Origin: a virus
Reading direction: 5' to 3' (one strand)
Length of the DNA stretch: 28,919 nt
IMG/VR virus record: IMGVR_UViG_3300031851_000129
Span: 1-28,919 of that record
Shown: positions 19,361-27,165 of the stretch, piece by piece
How the letters are laid out: each line of letters starts with the position of its first letter
Position numbering within the stretch: the first letter of the stretch is position 1
The notes under the pieces: generated by a model
What the model was told of the DNA's origin: nothing
Seen by the model: only the letters and a program-made list of their open reading frames with translations
Databases searched by the model: none
Program-made: the position numbers and the translations under genes

Positions 19361-19630
19361 TTATCGAGTATGAATGCTTAGGGCTTTGATTGACGCCTTG
19401 AGGCCTTCCGTGTCCAAAAGGTTGTTTAGATAATCTTCAGTGTCTTGCCGGTCTTCGTCCGCTTCTTGTGCATCGCAAAGGTCTTCCGATACCTCATCTA
19501 GCAGCTTGACCGCTTCCGCTAACTTGGCCAAGGTCTCGCTGTTTTGGATGCTGTAGCCGCGATGCGCTTGGGTATTGATGACCGCCGCGTAGTGTTCGAG
19601 GTCTTCCGCTATTCTGTCAAAGTCGATCAT
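19361..19630 (-). CDS. Hypothetical acidic helical protein (89 aa)
   Basis: Start chosen at ATG 19630, just after an ACGGAG ribosome box at 19640-19645; an upstream ATG in frame lacks one. The protein begins MIDFDRIAEDLEHYAAVINT and is helical and acidic throughout (LAEAVKLLDEVSEDLCDAQE, ADEDRQDTEDYLNNLLDT), with no TM segment. No family is recognised. Its promoter-like element is at 19663-19691. Its 3' end is close to the promoter block of the next gene, so it may be a monocistronic unit without a visible terminator. Confidence 0.7.
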   Translation of the reverse strand: MIDFDRIAEDLEHYAAVINTQAHRGYSIQNSETLAKLAEAVKLLDEVSEDLCDAQEADEDRQDTEDYLNNLLDTEGLKASIKALSIHTR

Positions 19631-19700: not shown

Positions 19701-19916
19701 TTACACAGACCCAGAACCGTTAAAAGTTCCCATTTCCGCCGCGTCGAAATATTCCAAAGGCTCAACCCCTCGCGCTTGCAATTCTTCGGCGTACCGCTTC
19801 GCTTCGGCTTCGTTCCGGTGTGATTTGCCATGACCCAAAGCAAGGCAAGCTGTCGCCGCCGCGTTGGCGTATGAGCTTTTGAGGGTTTCGATTGTTGCGT
19901 TTTCGATTGCTTCCAT
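19701..19916 (-). CDS. Hypothetical protein (71 aa) with a ribozyme-bearing leader
   Basis: Start at ATG 19916 after an ACGGAG box (19925-19930). The protein begins MEAIENATIETLKSSYANAA and contains ATACLALGHGKSHRNEAEAK, RYAEELQARGVEPLEY and FDAAEMGTFNGSGSV. This looks like a short helical hairpin followed by a small strand, with no known family. Its leader contains a complete hammerhead ribozyme whose cleavage point is 32 nt upstream of the ATG. Cleavage would leave a short leader with a 5'-OH and an intact ribosome site. No separate promoter was seen, so it is probably co-transcribed with the 87-aa gene. Confidence 0.7.
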   Translation of the reverse strand: MEAIENATIETLKSSYANAAATACLALGHGKSHRNEAEAKRYAEELQARGVEPLEYFDAAEMGTFNGSGSV

Positions 19917-19939
19917 TTGTACCGCTCCGTTTTGTTGTT

Positions 19940-20008
19940 GGTTTCCTAGACGCCTTTCGGCGTTTCGGCCCGTACCAGTGGGCCTCATCAGTAGGATTAT
20001 TAGCAACC
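19940..20008 (-). ncRNA. Type I hammerhead self-cleaving ribozyme
   Basis: On the minus strand all conserved core parts occur in order. Stem I 5' strand TCCTA (19996-19992), core CTGATGA (19991-19985), stem II GGCCC / loop ACTGGTAC / GGGCC (19984-19967), core GAAA (19966-19963, last A pairs in stem III), stem III CGCC / GAAA loop / GGCG (19962-19951), then U (19950) and C17 (19949) as cleavage nucleotide, and stem I 3' strand TAGGA (19948-19944). Stem I continues past an eight-base bulge as GGTT (20008-20005) with AACC (19943-19940). Open ends are in stem I, so it is type I. Predicted cleavage is between 19949 and 19948. The stop codon of the 87-aa gene lies in the bulge. Confidence 0.92.
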
Positions 20009-20263
20009 TAATCCAGCAGTCCGCGCTAAATCCTTGTAATAACTCAAGCTGTCTTGTAGATATTCAATTGCCCGAATTTCAATTCCGAATTCATCATATA
20101 ATCGAATATTCGCCTCAATTATTCTGATCTTGGCATTGAGCCTCAACAAATGCGCGTCCCAATCATCGCCTGCTTTTTCATCATAAAGGATCTGATCACA
20201 TTCTCTGCTTTTTAGAATCTGGCCTAAATCGTCCGCTGCTTCCTGGCTAATCTTGTTTTTCAT
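20000..20263 (-). CDS. Hypothetical helical protein (87 aa)
   Basis: Start at ATG 20263 after an ACGGAG box (20272-20277); upstream in-frame ATG at 20299 would overlap the promoter -10 region. The protein begins MKNKISQEAADDLGQILKSR and is mostly helical and charged (DDWDAHLLRLNAKIRIIEAN, IEIRAIEYLQDSLSYYKDLA), possibly a coiled-coil dimer. No family is recognised. Its last codons and stop form the upper part of stem I of the hammerhead ribozyme, so translation termination and ribozyme folding could interfere with each other (inference). It is first gene of the leftward unit from the promoter at 20298-20326. Confidence 0.7.
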   Translation of the reverse strand: MKNKISQEAADDLGQILKSRECDQILYDEKAGDDWDAHLLRLNAKIRIIEANIRLYDEFGIEIRAIEYLQDSLSYYKDLARTAGLGC

Positions 20264-20297
20264 TTGTGTTGCTCCGTTTTGTTGATTTGATGAGTAC

Positions 20298-20326
20298 ACT
20301 TTACCCCGTCCGTTTCATCTTGTCAA
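20298..20326 (-). promoter_or_regulatory. Strong sigma70-type promoter of the 87-aa gene
   Basis: TTGACA (20326-20321), 17-nt spacer, TAAAGT (20303-20298) on the minus strand. The A/T block GTAAAAATAATTC lies directly upstream. This promoter should transcribe the 87-aa gene, the ribozyme and the 71-aa gene. Confidence 0.65.
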
Positions 20327-21912: not shown

Positions 21913-22149
21913 TCACCAAGACGGCTTCTTAGGTTGATCCTTCGGAGCCGTTTCCTTTTCTATCAGTATTTCGCAATAGTGTATTGCTTTCCGTAGATCT
22001 TCTACCCCGCCTTTATCCCGCCACCTAGAGATATATTTTACCACCGCGTGCTCACAGATCCCCAAATTATTGGCGAGCGCATATTCCAAGGGCTGGATCA
22101 TCATAGTCTTGTAATGGTTTCCAGAAATTTGCCGATCCATTGCGCTCAT
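21913..22149 (-). CDS. DUF3310 family protein
   Basis: Start at ATG 22149 after AGGAG and inside an ATGA overlap with the preceding phosphoesterase gene; the longer upstream frame lies within that gene and is not real. The 78-residue protein matches the DUF3310 pattern: DRQISGNHYKTMMIQPLEYA at about 5-24, then NNLGICEHAVVKYISRW and RDKGGVEDLRKAIHYCEILI. These phage proteins are sometimes labelled nucleotide kinase because DUF3310 is fused to such enzymes in T7-like phages, but no P-loop occurs here. Function is unknown; a role in nucleotide metabolism is often assumed. Confidence 0.85.
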   Translation of the reverse strand: MSAMDRQISGNHYKTMMIQPLEYALANNLGICEHAVVKYISRWRDKGGVEDLRKAIHYCEILIEKETAPKDQPKKPSW

Positions 22150-23327
22150 ATCAACTCCTGAATGTTTGCTTTCAATCTTCCCTGCTCTCCGAACGATTTG
22201 TGAAGGATTACGCAAGTCATACTGCGAGAACTGGCATAACCAGAGCCAGCGTGCCAAGCGTCGGCGGGTGCGAGGATGTTCCAGGACTCGAACAATGCGC
22301 CGCCATATTCCTCTTGGTTCTTGTGGTGTATGTGTCCAGTCCATACGAAAGTGTGATCGCTTGATCCCCATTCTTGCCTTAGATTGCTCACGATTGAGCC
22401 ATGTAGGTTGGACATTTTAATCCGATCACCGTGATGGGTCACTACCAAATTCTTGCCCCATTGCCACCAGATAAATTTGCTCGCGTTGTCAAAGACCTTA
22501 ACCCTTGGGTCTTCCTCGAAGTACAACCGCATCACCTCGTTCAGCCACAGAGCCGCGTCTGGATCGTGATTACCCCTGACGTTGACTAGCCAGACTTGGT
22601 TGTGCTTTTCAAGCATACGCAAAACGGTACGCTTTATGACATTGCTGGCAGCTCTAATGGTTTTAGAATAACGACCATCGCTATCGAGCAAGTTTTTGCT
22701 GTTAGGCGTTGAGCTGGTGCTGTCGTTGATGTGCATGAAGTCGCCAAGGTTCACCAGAACCCCGACCTCTCCTGCCGGCGCTGAACCGACCAACCTTTCT
22801 ATGGCGCTTTCCAGAAGGGTTTGACTAATCTTAACGTCGTAGTCATCGCCCATCGTTTCGCTGTGATGAGCAAGCATACCAAGGTGATGGTCGCCAATAA
22901 TGTAGCTAACCATAAGATCGTCATCAGTGCCTGTAGGCGCGTCAAAGGGAGTGTGTATTCCGGTGAGTTCATCTTTAAACCCCTCCACAAACTGAGCAAT
23001 TAGCTCCTCGATCTTTTGCCGCTCTGGCTCTTGTATATGCCACTGTAGGACGATATCGCCGTCCATATTGTAGGCTGTGCTGACTCTCTTGGTTGTAAAA
23101 CCCGGCGCGACTTGGCGGTTAAGATTTTGATCTGGCGCTACGCCGCCCAAAGCAGCTCTGGCGTGAACCTTATTGATAATTTCGGAAATGGTTTTTGGGT
23201 CTCGACTTAATTCTCTGCCCATCGCTGCGAAGGTTAAGCCCTGCATGTGCAGATTTATAATCTTTCTTTGGTATTCGGTATTACAAAATTCGAGGTGCTG
23301 CTCTACACTTCTATTCGTCATGCTCAT
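22146..23327 (-). CDS. HTH plus calcineurin-like metallophosphoesterase
   Basis: A 393-residue protein with two parts. Residues about 18-53 form a helix-turn-helix (EYQRKIINLHMQGLTFAAMG, RELSRDPKTISEIINK). Residues from about 138 on form a calcineurin-like phosphoesterase with all metal-site blocks: GDHHLG (145-150), NLGDFMH (193-199), RGNHD (251-255), THHGD (297-301), GHIHH (331-335). Known relatives include nucleases, cyclic nucleotide phosphodiesterases and 2',3'-phosphatases. The HTH suggests that it acts on, or is guided to, DNA. It ends in an ATGA overlap with the DUF3310 gene. The product is common in lambdoid-like aquatic phages, with unknown substrate. Confidence 0.85.
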   Translation of the reverse strand: MSMTNRSVEQHLEFCNTEYQRKIINLHMQGLTFAAMGRELSRDPKTISEIINKVHARAALGGVAPDQNLNRQVAPGFTTKRVSTAYNMDGDIVLQWHIQEPERQKIEELIAQFVEGFKDELTGIHTPFDAPTGTDDDLMVSYIIGDHHLGMLAHHSETMGDDYDVKISQTLLESAIERLVGSAPAGEVGVLVNLGDFMHINDSTSSTPNSKNLLDSDGRYSKTIRAASNVIKRTVLRMLEKHNQVWLVNVRGNHDPDAALWLNEVMRLYFEEDPRVKVFDNASKFIWWQWGKNLVVTHHGDRIKMSNLHGSIVSNLRQEWGSSDHTFVWTGHIHHKNQEEYGGALFESWNILAPADAWHAGSGYASSRSMTCVILHKSFGEQGRLKANIQELI

Positions 23328-23562
23328 CTGCCCATGTCATGTGGGAAAAGACATTAGAAGCCATTTGCAAGCGGCCTATTATGCTTGCAATTGCATCGGG
23401 GTCTGTCGAGAAAGTTCCGGGCATGTCAAGGTCAAAACCGTCCTGATACTCGGTAACTATAACTGCTCCAGTAATCTCACCAGCTTCGCAAGCGTCCAAA
23501 AGTTTACGCAAGACTGTGCGTACTTCCTCTGCGTTACGATCTAAGATTGAGACTTCGCCCAT
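23311..23562 (-). CDS. Hypothetical protein (83 aa)
   Basis: A small acidic protein: SILDRNAEEVRTVLRKLLDA (helix), CEAGEITGAVIVTEYQDGFD (strand), FSTDPDAIASIIGRLQMASN (helix). The order helix-strand-helix with DAxxxGxIxGaviv resembles small phage proteins that come before metallophosphoesterase genes (from memory), but I cannot name a family. It overlaps both neighbours (22 nt with the NinG gene, 17 nt with the phosphoesterase), so it belongs to the replication operon. Confidence 0.7.
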   Translation of the reverse strand: MGEVSILDRNAEEVRTVLRKLLDACEAGEITGAVIVTEYQDGFDLDMPGTFSTDPDAIASIIGRLQMASNVFSHMTWADEHDE

Positions 23563-24086
23563 TCTTTATTCTTCGCCTGATATATCGACAGCAAGTCTTG
23601 CAGCTCATCGATTGAGTATTTCTTTGGATCATGCGGCCCCTCAAGCCTCTCCACTTCATCCAACCCTATTTTGTCAATTAAGTTTGGACGATATTCAACT
23701 AAATTACCACTTTTATGATTATTGCAAACACTGCATTGCTTATGGGTATTTTGTTCATCAAACCGTAAGGCAGCAGAGTGGCCGCCAACGCTCATATAGT
23801 GACCGGCATGGTATTGCCCTGTGTGATGACGCTTGCAGCTTATACACGGATCTCTGTGGTCTCTACTTCGTATATACTTGTTGAACTCCGTCTGAACGCG
23901 CTTTATCCAGTAGCCGCGATCTTTCTCCCTAGCCTTTTTCTTCTCTTGCCTGACAGATCTTTTGGTAAGCCGAGACGCTTCTTGTTTTCCGAACAGTATG
24001 ATGCAATCCATGCTGTTGCACGTTTTCTGGAAGCTAGTGAACTCTGGGCTGAACGCGGTAGAGCAAATCTTACATTTCTTTGGCAT
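23541..24086 (-). CDS. ninG: NinG / Rap recombination endonuclease-like protein
   Basis: A 181-residue protein matching lambda NinG (Rap). The N-terminus has a zinc-ribbon-like Cys set (C5, C8, C23, C28: KCKICSTAF, TCNSMDC), followed by a Lys/Arg/Gln-rich helix, then the nuclease-like part: YIRSRDHRDPCISCKRHHTG, YHAGHYMSVGG, RFDEQN, HKQCSVCNNHKSGN. These match the conserved NinG blocks (C.SCg......y.AGHy...G....lRf...N.h.QC..CN...sGn). Rap is a structure-specific endonuclease that acts on recombination intermediates. The C-terminal DPKKYSIDELQDLLSIYQAK helix is also typical. Together with NinB and a Sak3-type annealase it forms the recombination set. Confidence 0.92.
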   Translation of the reverse strand: MPKKCKICSTAFSPEFTSFQKTCNSMDCIILFGKQEASRLTKRSVRQEKKKAREKDRGYWIKRVQTEFNKYIRSRDHRDPCISCKRHHTGQYHAGHYMSVGGHSAALRFDEQNTHKQCSVCNNHKSGNLVEYRPNLIDKIGLDEVERLEGPHDPKKYSIDELQDLLSIYQAKNKEWAKSQS

Positions 24087-24124
24087 ACCCTTTCTCTCTA
24101 AATATCTCAGCCGCTAAGGATATG

Positions 24125-24682
24125 TTATTTTTTCGGCAAGTCCCAAGTGTGAGGGTTGGTTAGCTCAAATCCCAACCCTTCAAAGTGCTGCTTAACCTCG
24201 TCTAAGAATGCGCCATGTTGCGCGATGTTCATTGCGGATGTTACAGGGAAATCGAACGGCTCTACCATCAATTCTAGCTTTTGCTCGTAAGGCATTGGCC
24301 TGATTATTCTGTCGTACTTTGCTCGATACTCTGGGCTGTCGCGTCTTAGAATCGGAACGCCAAAGTGCAACTTGCAATAGGCCCGATACTCCCACGCCTT
24401 CTGATCGCCCTGCGACTCTGCATCCCTAAACCATTGCCATTGAGTCCTGTTTTGAGACAACGACCTTGATCTCGACGCCTTCTTGATAACTACGTCTATG
24501 GGATACTGTAGCTCGATTTGCTGAAGCGTTGTCAACAAGCTGTTCTTGTCTCCCTCGTCATGCAGGACCATGTGTATCTCAGACGCTGACAGAAGACCCC
24601 CACTGTTACCATTACCTAGTGTTTTAATTTCTGCGAGACGTTGTTTTTGGCGGTCTACCGCCTTTTGCGAGGCCTTTCTCAT
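24125..24682 (-). CDS. NinB-like recombination protein
   Basis: Start at ATG 24682, in an ATGA overlap with the preceding gene. The 185-residue protein has a charged N-terminus (RKASQKAVDRQKQRLAEIKT), then PIDVVIKKASRSRSLSQNRT, WQWFRDAESQGDQKAWEYRA, YCKLHFGVPILRRDSPEYRA and AQHGAFLDEVKQHFEGLGFE. The SRSLSQNRTQW core followed by a compact helical part and LTNP near the end matches the NinB/YbcN-like family, a ssDNA-binding recombination mediator of the lambda nin region. It is longer than lambda NinB (146 aa) owing to the N-terminal part. Position next to NinG supports the call; similarity is moderate. Confidence 0.65.
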   Translation of the reverse strand: MRKASQKAVDRQKQRLAEIKTLGNGNSGGLLSASEIHMVLHDEGDKNSLLTTLQQIELQYPIDVVIKKASRSRSLSQNRTQWQWFRDAESQGDQKAWEYRAYCKLHFGVPILRRDSPEYRAKYDRIIRPMPYEQKLELMVEPFDFPVTSAMNIAQHGAFLDEVKQHFEGLGFELTNPHTWDLPKK

Positions 24683-25152
24683 CGTAGTTGTGCAAACATT
24701 GCTTTGGTTTCCTCTATCTGCTCGTCGGTCACTTCGTATAATGACTTTTCCCCGGTGACACAAACTTCATGGTGATGACGAGTAAATGCGTATGATCTAC
24801 ACACGTCACAGATCCTAGTATCCTTTGTTGGTCTATGGGCTGGCTCTAGCTTTATCTCGTCGAGCAACTCCTTGAACTCGCCCAAGGTAGGCGCAAACTT
24901 CTTAAACTTGTGAACGACCTCCAAGGTTGCTTTGTTCATCAACGCCTGATCGTAGTCCTTGAGGTATGACCACCACATCTTTTTAGTAGATGCGATGTCC
25001 TCATTGGAGGTGTCATTCAGGAACGACGGATAGTTCAATCTCATCACGCCAAACAACTGATTTATGTGCGACTTATCTAGCTCCTCACCAGTCCGTACTT
25101 GTGGCGATCTTCGTTGCGCTGTGACGGCGTTGCTGACGATTCTTGTGCTCAT
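24679..25152 (-). CDS. Helicase-loader-like replication protein (lambda P / G39P position)
   Basis: Start at ATG 25152 after GGAAGAC, overlapping the O-like gene by 68 nt. The 157-residue protein has a basic N-terminus, a helical core (LDKSHINQLFGVMRLNYPSF, TKKMWWSYLKDYDQALMNKA, VVHKFKKFAPTLGEFKELLD) and a C-terminal metal-site candidate, CDVCRSYAFTRHHHEVC (C115, C118, His126-128, C131). The core pattern (W...L.dyd...v..A.......fPPti.ei) resembles the phage helicase loader G39P group. The position after an O-like initiator is that of lambda gpP. It probably loads the host replicative helicase, as no phage helicase is seen. Confidence 0.65.
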   Translation of the reverse strand: MSTRIVSNAVTAQRRSPQVRTGEELDKSHINQLFGVMRLNYPSFLNDTSNEDIASTKKMWWSYLKDYDQALMNKATLEVVHKFKKFAPTLGEFKELLDEIKLEPAHRPTKDTRICDVCRSYAFTRHHHEVCVTGEKSLYEVTDEQIEETKAMFAQLR

Positions 25153-25789
25153 ATATTGTCTTCCATCCATTGCTGTTTGCCTCCTCGAATAATGTTTTTA
25201 TGTCTTCCCCGTTCTGAGAAAATTCCTCTGCCCTGCTCGCCAAAGTCGCCAGTGCCCTTGCGGTATTGTTGGCCTTTAACTTTACCCTAGTCTTCAAGAA
25301 TTCATTCCATAACTGCCTATCAACCCCCAGTGCGGTAACGCGCTGGAAGATAGCTTTTATCTTTCTCTTTTCTGTATCTGCTTCTGTATCTGTATCTGTA
25401 TCTTGGGTCGTCACCTTAGCGTTTTGGTGACGTTTTGGTTCCGTCACGCTTTTGCTAACCTTTTGTTTTTCCCTGTATTTTCTCTGACGTTCTTTGCTGG
25501 AATCCGACTTGTATTGTCGTTCTTCCCACTTGATGACATCCCAATTCTTATCAACCAAATTAACGTCTTTAAGACGCTTCTTTAGCTCATCAAGGGCGGG
25601 TAGTTGTAAGCCTAATTTGACTGCCAACGATCTGTTGACAAACTCTGCATCTGCGTTCTCAAAGATGCCTGATTGCTTGCACGCCATAATTGCTATGAAA
25701 TGCCATCGATCCTCGAATGCAAGTAGCCGCATCTTGTGGTTATCGACAATATTCGTGTATACTCTGAACCAAGGTAAACCATCTGACAT
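25085..25789 (-). CDS. Replication initiator-like protein (lambda O-type organisation)
   Basis: Start at ATG 25789 (MSDGLPWFRVYTNIVDNHKM) after ACGGAGCAGTT; an upstream in-frame start would extend through the 25845-25870 hairpin. Residues 1-95 form a winged-helix-like N-terminal domain (RWHFIAIMACKQSGIFENAD, KRLKDVNLVDKNWDVIKWEE), typical of phage replisome organisers. A charged linker follows (KERQRKYREKQKVSKS), then TTQDTDTDTEADTEKRK encoded by GATACA repeats, and a C-terminal helical domain (RQLWNEFLKTRVKLKANNTA; SNGWKTIYEHKNR). The last motif (GW.gi.e) is common at the end of these proteins. It likely opens the origin and recruits the loader encoded next. Confidence 0.82.
   Translation of the reverse strand: MSDGLPWFRVYTNIVDNHKMRLLAFEDRWHFIAIMACKQSGIFENADAEFVNRSLAVKLGLQLPALDELKKRLKDVNLVDKNWDVIKWEERQYKSDSSKERQRKYREKQKVSKSVTEPKRHQNAKVTTQDTDTDTEADTEKRKIKAIFQRVTALGVDRQLWNEFLKTRVKLKANNTARALATLASRAEEFSQNGEDIKTLFEEANSNGWKTIYEHKNRQQRRHSATKIATSTDW
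25371..25404 (-). repeat. Tandem GATACA repeats inside the O-like gene
   Basis: The minus strand shows GATACA units in tandem with one GAAGCA variant, encoding the DTDTDTEADTE linker. Lambda-type origins lie within O as iterons, so this could mark the origin, but the units are short and may be simple slippage-prone linker DNA. Confidence 0.6.
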
Positions 25790-25844
25790 AACTGCTCCGT
25801 TTTGTTCCTTCGTTGCCTTTGCTTCCTGTTCCGAAGAAGCTATT

Positions 25845-25870
25845 AGCCCCCTTAATTGGGGGCTTTTTTT
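25845..25870 (+). terminator. Intrinsic terminator, plus strand
   Basis: AGCCCCC (25845-25851), loop TTAATT, GGGGGCT (25858-25864), then T-run to 25870. The seven-pair stem with seven T is a strong rho-independent terminator for plus-strand transcription. On the minus strand, where the flanking genes are encoded, there is no T-run after the stem, so leftward transcription from the Cro-like gene can continue. Confidence 0.8.
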
Positions 25871-26064
25871 CACCGCTCCCAAATGGTCTTGGTATTGACC
25901 GACTCGATACGATCAATCTCAAAATCATCGGAACAATGTACCCAAGTCTCTCGACAGTTAGCCCAGTACCAGACCTTTTGCCTGGAGCACCCCATCAGCC
26001 TAGCGACATCGCTAAACGACTTGCCTGATTCTTCGCAAAAGAATGTCAATTGCATCTTATTCAT
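25870..26064 (-). CDS. Small Cro-like HTH regulator (64 aa)
   Basis: Start at ATG 26064, after GGAGGGACTT; a longer frame upstream has no ribosome site and would cover the promoter. The protein begins MNKMQLTFFCEESGKSFSDV and has a HTH, KSFSDVARLMGCSRQKVWYW, at about 15-34, with D-V-A-x-x-M-G turn and S-R-Q-K recognition helix. The C-terminal part (DDFEIDRIESVNTKTIWER) is a strand-like dimer tail as in Cro. Size, HTH and position next to a divergent promoter match a Cro-type repressor. No CI-type partner occurs in the window. The stop codon lies directly at the T-run of the antisense terminator. Confidence 0.72.
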   Translation of the reverse strand: MNKMQLTFFCEESGKSFSDVARLMGCSRQKVWYWANCRETWVHCSDDFEIDRIESVNTKTIWER

Positions 26065-26088
26065 AAGTCCCTCCATTTGTTCCTGCGA

Positions 26089-26117
26089 ATTATAAGCACA
26101 AAAAACTTGTCTCGTAA
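26089..26117 (-). promoter_or_regulatory. Leftward promoter of the Cro-like and replication genes
   Basis: Perfect TATAAT (26094-26089) on the minus strand with TTACGA (26117-26112) 17 nt upstream. The -10 is ideal, the -35 poor. Predicted start is about 20 nt before the Cro-like gene's ATG. Confidence 0.55.
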
Positions 26118-26121
26118 AGTC

Positions 26122-26150
26122 TTGACAATGCTTTTTGTAAAATATATATT
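26122..26150 (+). promoter_or_regulatory. Strong rightward promoter of the recombination operon
   Basis: TTGACA (26122-26127), 17-nt spacer, TATATT (26145-26150). It lies back to back with the leftward promoter, only 4 nt between the -35 boxes. TTGTC (26107-26111) and GACAA (26124-26128) form a short inverted pair over the -35 that could be an operator. The ATG at 26180 has an ACGGAG box. Confidence 0.8.
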
Positions 26151-26179
26151 TAACGGGCATTAACAAAACGGAGAAAACA

Positions 26180-26395
26180 ATGCGTATAGAAAAAGGTGTT
26201 CCATACCCGAAGCCAGTACCGACAAGTAGGATTGACTATTCAGTTCTTGATGACATGGAGGTCAATGATTCTGTGTACTGCGAAAGTCAAAACGTAGAAA
26301 TTTGGCGGTACATGAAGAACAAAGGTTGGACTGTTGCCTCGAAGTATTATCAAGTGGAAGGAAAGCGCCACATGCGAACTTGGAGGATGTCATGA
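26180..26395 (+). CDS. Small conserved phage protein (71 aa)
   Basis: First gene after the strong rightward promoter. The protein begins MRIEKGVPYPKPVPTSRIDY and contains LDDMEVNDSVYCE and IWRYMKNKGWTVASKYYQVE, ending HMRTWRMS. The layout I.kgvp.P, then M.vgDSv.v, a helix, and a final R.WR. is a recurrent small phage protein (DUF7303-like from memory), function unknown. It is usually near single-strand annealing or replication genes, as here. It overlaps the annealase gene by 4 nt (ATGA). Confidence 0.75.
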   Translation: MRIEKGVPYPKPVPTSRIDYSVLDDMEVNDSVYCESQNVEIWRYMKNKGWTVASKYYQVEGKRHMRTWRMS

Positions 26396-27165
26396 GCGAC
26401 AGCAAAGCGCATAACGTGTTTAGAAACCTTGCCTCAATTGATGTCAACAAGCACACATCCAAGAAGGGTAAATTTACATACCTAAGTTGGACATGGGCAT
26501 GGGCGACCTTGATGGAGGAATACCCAGAATCAACCTATGAATTCCTGCCGAACGAGATCCATAACGACGAGTCAGTAACTGTACACTGTACTGTGACGGT
26601 TGAAGGCATCAGCAGAACGATGTGGCTTGCTGTAATGGATAACAACAACCGCGCCATCAAGAACCCGTCATCTACCGACATTGCGAACAACAAGATGCGT
26701 TGTTTAGTCAAAGCGTTGGCGATGTTTGGTCTAGGGCATTATATCTATGCAGGGGAATCAATGCCTGAAGTTGACTTGTACTCAGAGCTTCATCTTGTCC
26801 TTAAAAGCGGCAGTTCTTTAGATCTTCTTGATCATTTGGACCGGCTGTCTGATACAGAGCAAGCAGAGGCCTTTAACGGCGCTCCTAAAGGCCAGAAGCA
26901 AGCGTTTAAAGACCAAGTAAGGGTTGCTACCAAGGCTGCTCACGACGCCTTAGACGGCATTACAGCAGACCTAAGGGAGCTGATGAAAGATGATGATAAA
27001 TCGGGTCTTGACGAGGTGTGGGATGACACCACACCGTTGCAGAAAAAACTTATTGGTGCTCGGTTTACGGCAGCAGAAAAACATGCCTTCAAAGCTATTA
27101 GAGCTGCTGGAGATGTTGAGGCCACAGAAGGCGTTATCCATTATTTAGAAAAGAAAGGAGAGTAA
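26392..27165 (+). CDS. Sak3-type single-strand annealing protein (DUF1071 family)
   Basis: Start at ATG 26392 after GGAGGATGTC, in an ATGA overlap; the upstream extension is the preceding gene in another frame. The 257-residue protein has the DUF1071 core: KGKFTYLSWTWAWATLMEEY at about 23-42, PESTYEF, VTVHCTVTVEGISRTMWLAV, then NNKMRCLVKALAMFGLGHYI with YAGESMP. The last two blocks are conserved across Rad52-like phage annealases (R.l.KA.a..GlG..iy.ge). The acidic Lys/Asp-rich C-terminal third is variable. It should pair complementary single strands in phage recombination, together with the SSB-like protein encoded next and NinB/NinG on the other operon. Confidence 0.88.
   Translation: MSDSKAHNVFRNLASIDVNKHTSKKGKFTYLSWTWAWATLMEEYPESTYEFLPNEIHNDESVTVHCTVTVEGISRTMWLAVMDNNNRAIKNPSSTDIANNKMRCLVKALAMFGLGHYIYAGESMPEVDLYSELHLVLKSGSSLDLLDHLDRLSDTEQAEAFNGAPKGQKQAFKDQVRVATKAAHDALDGITADLRELMKDDDKSGLDEVWDDTTPLQKKLIGARFTAAEKHAFKAIRAAGDVEATEGVIHYLEKKGE

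Follow-up and report, generated by a model that had tools for sequence, protein, structure and literature searches.

Hammerhead ribozymes around variable phage genes are already known. According to the main text of Perreault et al. (2011), clustered hammerheads flank single prophage genes of inconstant identity, all three hammerhead types occur, and a triple array was cleaved in E. coli (PMC3088659). Processing of a long phage RNA to single-gene mRNAs was proposed there. Later work found hammerheads enriched near phage genes, for an unknown reason (PMC10085705), and a 2017 review still regarded the role of phage hammerheads as open (PMC6155905). Their function has been an open question since 2011. 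The theta ribozymes of gut phages likewise cleave themselves and thereby process a phage transcript; they have an HDV-like fold and lie beside tRNAs, whereas the hammerhead described here, whose cleavage is predicted, lies between protein genes (PMC10879173).

The window, a stretch of 28,919 nucleotides of viral DNA (IMG/VR record IMGVR_UViG_3300031851_000129), carries a ribozyme that belongs to this known kind. Like the loci of Perreault et al., the window and its related loci have small phage genes that vary in identity, with a ribozyme in sense orientation between them. The main text of that paper (PMC3088659) does not describe what is seen here, namely homologous slots that exchange the upstream gene yet keep the leader, ribozyme and downstream gene, or that exchange type I for type III. 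No account of such slot-level exchange of genes and ribozyme types at hammerhead junctions was found in the open-access papers searched.

The source record is siphophage-like, with a terminase about 55% identical to those of Guernseyvirinae-type phages. The ribozyme is part of a two-gene unit on the minus strand (Table 1), in the order promoter-like element, short leader, 87-aa gene, ribozyme and 71-aa gene. Transcription would start near 20291, as placed from the promoter match; the stretch around the promoter is 96% identical in the related locus L083 and 91% in L129. The 87-aa gene is an orphan without a family in Pfam or PHROGs, and its stop codon ends 3 nt ahead of stem I. Neither the 71-aa protein nor the DNA of the ribozyme region has a match among named phages. 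Elsewhere in the window (22146-27165) lies a compact recombination set that could drive gene exchange; it comprises a DNA-repair exonuclease, NinG/Rap, NinB/Orf and an annealing protein of the Sak-like kind.

Table 1. Positions of the ribozyme, its neighbours and the type III counterparts in related loci (window coordinates unless a locus is given).
Feature	Location	Strand	Remarks
Type I hammerhead ribozyme, core and stems I, II and III	19944-19996	minus	Direct reading, fold, Rfam, covariation, own model
Predicted cleavage site, 3' of C17 (19949)	19948-19949	minus	Position from hammerhead consensus
Putative pseudoknot, loop II strand UGGU	19974-19977	minus	Pairs with 19939-19942, covaries
Putative pseudoknot, 3'-flank strand ACCA	19939-19942	minus	Overlaps bases originally assigned to extra stem I pairs
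Sigma-70-type promoter TTGACA-17-TAAAGT	20298-20326	minus	Consensus match only, 10/12 positions; serves the two-gene unit
87-aa gene, variable slot occupant	20000-20263	minus	ORF with ribosome-binding site CGGAG
32-nt leader on downstream mRNA after predicted cut	19917-19948	minus	Ribosome-binding site GGAG
71-aa gene, orphan	19701-19916	minus	Directly downstream of ribozyme; 94-98% identical DNA in L003, L083, L129
89-aa gene	19361-19630	minus	103-aa ORF with earlier start; next in array; promoter-like TTGACG in front
Type III hammerhead at leader-controlled slot	L130:3873-3923		
Type III hammerhead at leader-controlled slot	L131:11130-11180		
Type III hammerhead at leader-controlled slot	L132:4482-4536		
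Type III hammerhead at leader-controlled slot	L133	minus	

Read directly, the minus-strand letters at 19944-19996 are UCCUA-CUGAUGA-GGCCC(ACUGGUAC)GGGCC-GAA-ACGCC(GAAA)GGCGU-C-UAGGA. All elements of the hammerhead core are present: CUGANGA (CUGAUGA, 19991-19985), GAA (19966-19964), the A15.1-U16.1 pair (A19963-U19950) and an H17 that is not G (C17, 19949). Stem I is formed by UCCUA (19996-19992) and UAGGA (19948-19944), stem II by GGCCC-ACUGGUAC-GGGCC (19984-19967) and stem III by A-CGCC-GAAA-GGCG-U (19963-19950), each with 5 bp. The topology is that of type I, by direct reading and by fold, with stem I open and loops capping stems II and III. RNA folding recovers the same three stems (z = -2.25). 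By all the sequence and covariation tests applied this element is a type I hammerhead, and its cleavage is predicted. The original prediction had described a complete core on the minus strand, three paired stems with five pairs in stem II and a GAAA loop on stem III, and a ribozyme in sense to both neighbouring genes; each of these features was found. Its predicted cut, between 19949 and 19948, agrees with the coordinates and would leave 32 nt ahead of the 71-aa gene, whose ATG is at 19916. The observation is confirmed and its interpretation is supported by the sequence, with two corrections. One concerns the tertiary contact. The other is that the gene exchange around the ribozyme, rather than the single copy, is the main interest.

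Stem I had originally been given a further 4 bp (GGUU/AACC) after an 8-nt bulge. The 5 bp of the stem proper stand. The extension was rejected because it is not conserved: GGUU is absent from L003, L083 and L135, in which the remainder is kept, and the AACC side pairs with loop II. Judging from compensated variants, the tertiary contact is supplied not by a longer stem I but by a pseudoknot between loop II and the 3' flank. Its strands, UGGU/ACCA in the window, become UGGC/GCCA in L033 and L062, UGAU/AUCA in L037 and UGGUUA/UAACCA in L109, and the pairing covaries within the window's own hammerhead subfamily. Of all 75 distinct type I copies, 18 can form a pseudoknot with at least four pairs, where re-dealt flanks give 9.8 on average and 17 at most; it is therefore a feature of some type I copies and not of all. 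As given in the main text of Perreault et al., about 40% of hammerheads use a pseudoknot joining stems I and II, and such pseudoknots are required for fast cleavage in the cases tested (PMC3088659).

Covariation was analysed in an alignment of 15 related sequences. Standard pairs make up 93.2% of the pair cells, partly by construction because these hammerheads were found with pairing required. Both sides have changed at 13 of the 19 pairs, and all three helices covary (4/5 pairs in stem I, 4/5 in stem II, 3/5 in stem III). The covariation score is 0.42 versus 0.16 in shuffles, none of 500 shuffles reaches the observed value, and shifting the pairing partners by 1-3 columns abolishes the signal. 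In the close relative L083 the compensatory changes in stems II and III are legible by eye.

The motif is also far from chance expectation. Among 88 pattern matches chosen on core and stem I letters only, with stems II and III disregarded, 51 have both of these stems; 0.14 would be expected after shuffling. A strict finder for types I, II and III, which allows all three permuted forms, was run on loci totalling 1.16 Mb. It detected 97 type I and 14 type III hammerheads there but not one in the reversed DNA, and this zero is the informative number because the loci were largely chosen for the motif.

The Rfam type I model (RF00163, Hammerhead_1) aligns end to end with 26.3 bits (E = 9e-5 for 151 nt), under its gathering score of 34, and the window contains no gathering match. 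An Rfam match above threshold had been proposed as a check on the original prediction and its absence as grounds to reject it, so the formal outcome is negative. That outcome is uninformative, since 12 related loci bearing plain, clearly covarying hammerheads give no gathering match either; it is judged a limit of the threshold and not counter-evidence. Because these thresholds miss such ribozymes, phage annotation under-counts them. The RAGATH-1-hammerhead model (RF03152) aligns over model positions 20-77, including the UAA before stem I. The window differs from it in a shorter stem III and a stem II of 5 bp with the pseudoknot, and its score for membership, 23.8 bits, is far under the gathering score of 56.3. 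A model built here gives the window 88.6 bits, with the window belonging to the training set.

In IMG/VR relatives the ribozyme closes a swappable gene slot, in which the leader and mostly also the ribozyme and the 71-aa gene are kept and the middle gene differs. The leader is 90-100% identical to that of the window in L003, L083 and L129. The ribozyme is 76-98% identical in L003, L083 and L135; the L129 copy is disrupted. The gene between them is unrelated in all four loci (42-53% identity, shuffled mean 48%). In L129 (2695-2967) the replacement upstream gene enters stem III and terminates at a UAG belonging to what is left of the ribozyme, and no match to the hammerhead model was found. The 71-aa gene is intact there although the ribozyme is destroyed. 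Since most of the ribozyme is lost and the downstream gene kept, the ribozyme is dispensable at least in L129. The order of genes changes as well. In L135 the ribozyme is followed by a homologue of the 89-aa gene, which in the window lies one place further downstream; in L136 this homologue comes directly after the leader, without any hammerhead; and in L126 a homologue of the 71-aa gene lies upstream of a hammerhead.

The ribozyme type is exchanged too. In four loci (L130-L133) the window-type leader is followed by different genes, after which comes a type III hammerhead of the form GGGUC-UACCAG...CUGGUA-CUGAUGA-GGCC...GGCC-GAAA-CCC. Another kind of site has a homologous gene with type I in front of it in three phages (L033, L062, L091) and type III in two (L145, L152). 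Several cassette genes are found at both kinds of site, small genes that adjoin type I in one phage turn up beside type III in a different one, and elsewhere the same small genes are found on either side of hammerheads. The occurrence of the same genes beside type I or type III argues for the retention of cleaving activity rather than of particular DNA letters. Relatives with swapped flanking genes, a switched ribozyme type and one ribozyme loss form a natural experiment that makes the question of function testable.

The type I hammerhead probably cuts the phage mRNA into two, uncoupling the genes so that those in the slot can be exchanged. One mRNA from the promoter at 20326-20298 would span the ribozyme together with the exchangeable small gene before it and the 71-aa gene after it. 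The RNA would form three stems, locked by the loop II / 3'-flank pseudoknot, and cut itself after C17 (19949), converting one polycistronic message into two single-gene messages. The 3' end of the upstream message would be shielded by the folded ribozyme; two stable hairpins (-18.9 kcal/mol) are predicted at this end. The downstream message would carry a 5'-OH and open with a short leader like a promoter-made one. This 32-nt leader is predicted to be nearly unstructured (-3.1 kcal/mol) and is similar to the one that the promoter gives the first gene, both containing AACAAAACGGAGC. Each gene would thus be uncoupled from its neighbour, and unrelated genes could be exchanged at the junction without polar effects. 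Cleavage can stabilise RNA and uncouple genes, and both effects would apply here. The compensatory changes in all three stems and the pseudoknot, together with the complete core, support the splitting of the mRNA, as do the placement of hammerheads and the gene exchange around them. The loss of most of the ribozyme in L129 counts against it. Structure, covariation, sense orientation, spacing and the exchange of genes and ribozymes among relatives are seen in the sequences; cleavage, its occurrence and timing in infected cells and its benefit to the phage are inferred. Extended to a group of siphophages known only from metagenomes, the same idea is more tentative: exchangeable gene slots may regularly end in a ribozyme, with every cassette gene bringing a hammerhead at its stop codon or landing beside one. 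Cleavage would then give the new gene its own message, and activity would be what is selected, so that types I and III substitute for each other.

The main rival holds that phages retain the hammerhead DNA chiefly as a short block of homology at which cassettes recombine, with RNA cleavage incidental. Exchange boundaries do fall at or inside the ribozyme. L083 is a mosaic, with stem III (ACCCUUCGGGGU) and the upstream gene family as in L062 and the 3' flank and 71-aa gene as in the window, and the boundary in L129 falls within stem III. The recombination proteins encoded in the window fit this picture. However, compensatory stem pairs reduce DNA identity, and type III substitutes for type I at equivalent junctions without a shared linear order. 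A role mainly in recombination is therefore unlikely, though it can act together with the splitting of the mRNA.

The placement of hammerheads was compared across 163 loci. There, 108 of 134 hammerheads lie between two genes co-directional with the ribozyme. The number that are mostly intergenic is also 108, although intergenic bases make up only 17%; no related locus has hammerheads on both strands. From the type I cut to the next ORF start with a ribosome-binding site the median distance is 30 nt. For type III the median distance to the next start is 65 nt, and the ribozyme body would stay on the downstream RNA. Among 73 distinct type I cases, 59 have the upstream stop codon adjoining or overlapping the ribozyme. 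This last feature would suit a translation gate: a ribosome at the stop codon would cover the first part of the core and the 5' strand of stem I, and a well-translated mRNA would then stay uncut and a poorly translated one be cut. Phage genes are tightly packed anyway, however, the median gap without a ribozyme being 11 nt, and gating is less likely still than a homology block. That the ribozyme is a decaying relic without present activity is very improbable: most of it is lost in L129 and L136 has the leader without a hammerhead, but the core is intact and the stems covary in all other close relatives.

Splitting of the mRNA at an exchange point is also consistent with the conservation of neighbours, which is 7-11% across hammerhead junctions versus 26-28% at other, unmatched junctions. 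When pairs were matched for gene size and location at high identity, the values are 26% versus 47% in one direction and 37% versus 37% in the other. The matched contrast holds mainly in one direction, or where one locus of the pair alone has a ribozyme. Being uneven once matched, this lower conservation is support and not proof.

Genes beside hammerheads are mostly orphans, since 13 Pfam families were found, each in one of 123 gene families. A defence-island reading was considered and rejected, one ArdC-type anti-restriction protein being insufficient. At least 119 stretches matched the pattern in viral contigs; when 84,980 bacterial and archaeal genomes were scanned with an almost unchanged pattern, 4 matched. 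By pattern, type I hammerheads are present in bacterial genome records of Legionella londiniensis (L174) and an Anaeroplasma MAG (L173).

Runs of 2-4 hammerheads, about 200-1200 nt apart with one or few small genes between, occur in L099 (12886-13870), L171, which has type II forms, L035 and L176, a record whose title names a Verrucomicrobia MAG. The near-identical flank GAAACCCGUGCYGCCCGG marks a distinct subfamily of type I, found in L006, L010, L013, L042, L068, L074, L096 and L108. In L013, L042 and L068 its hammerhead is followed by one conserved gene family.
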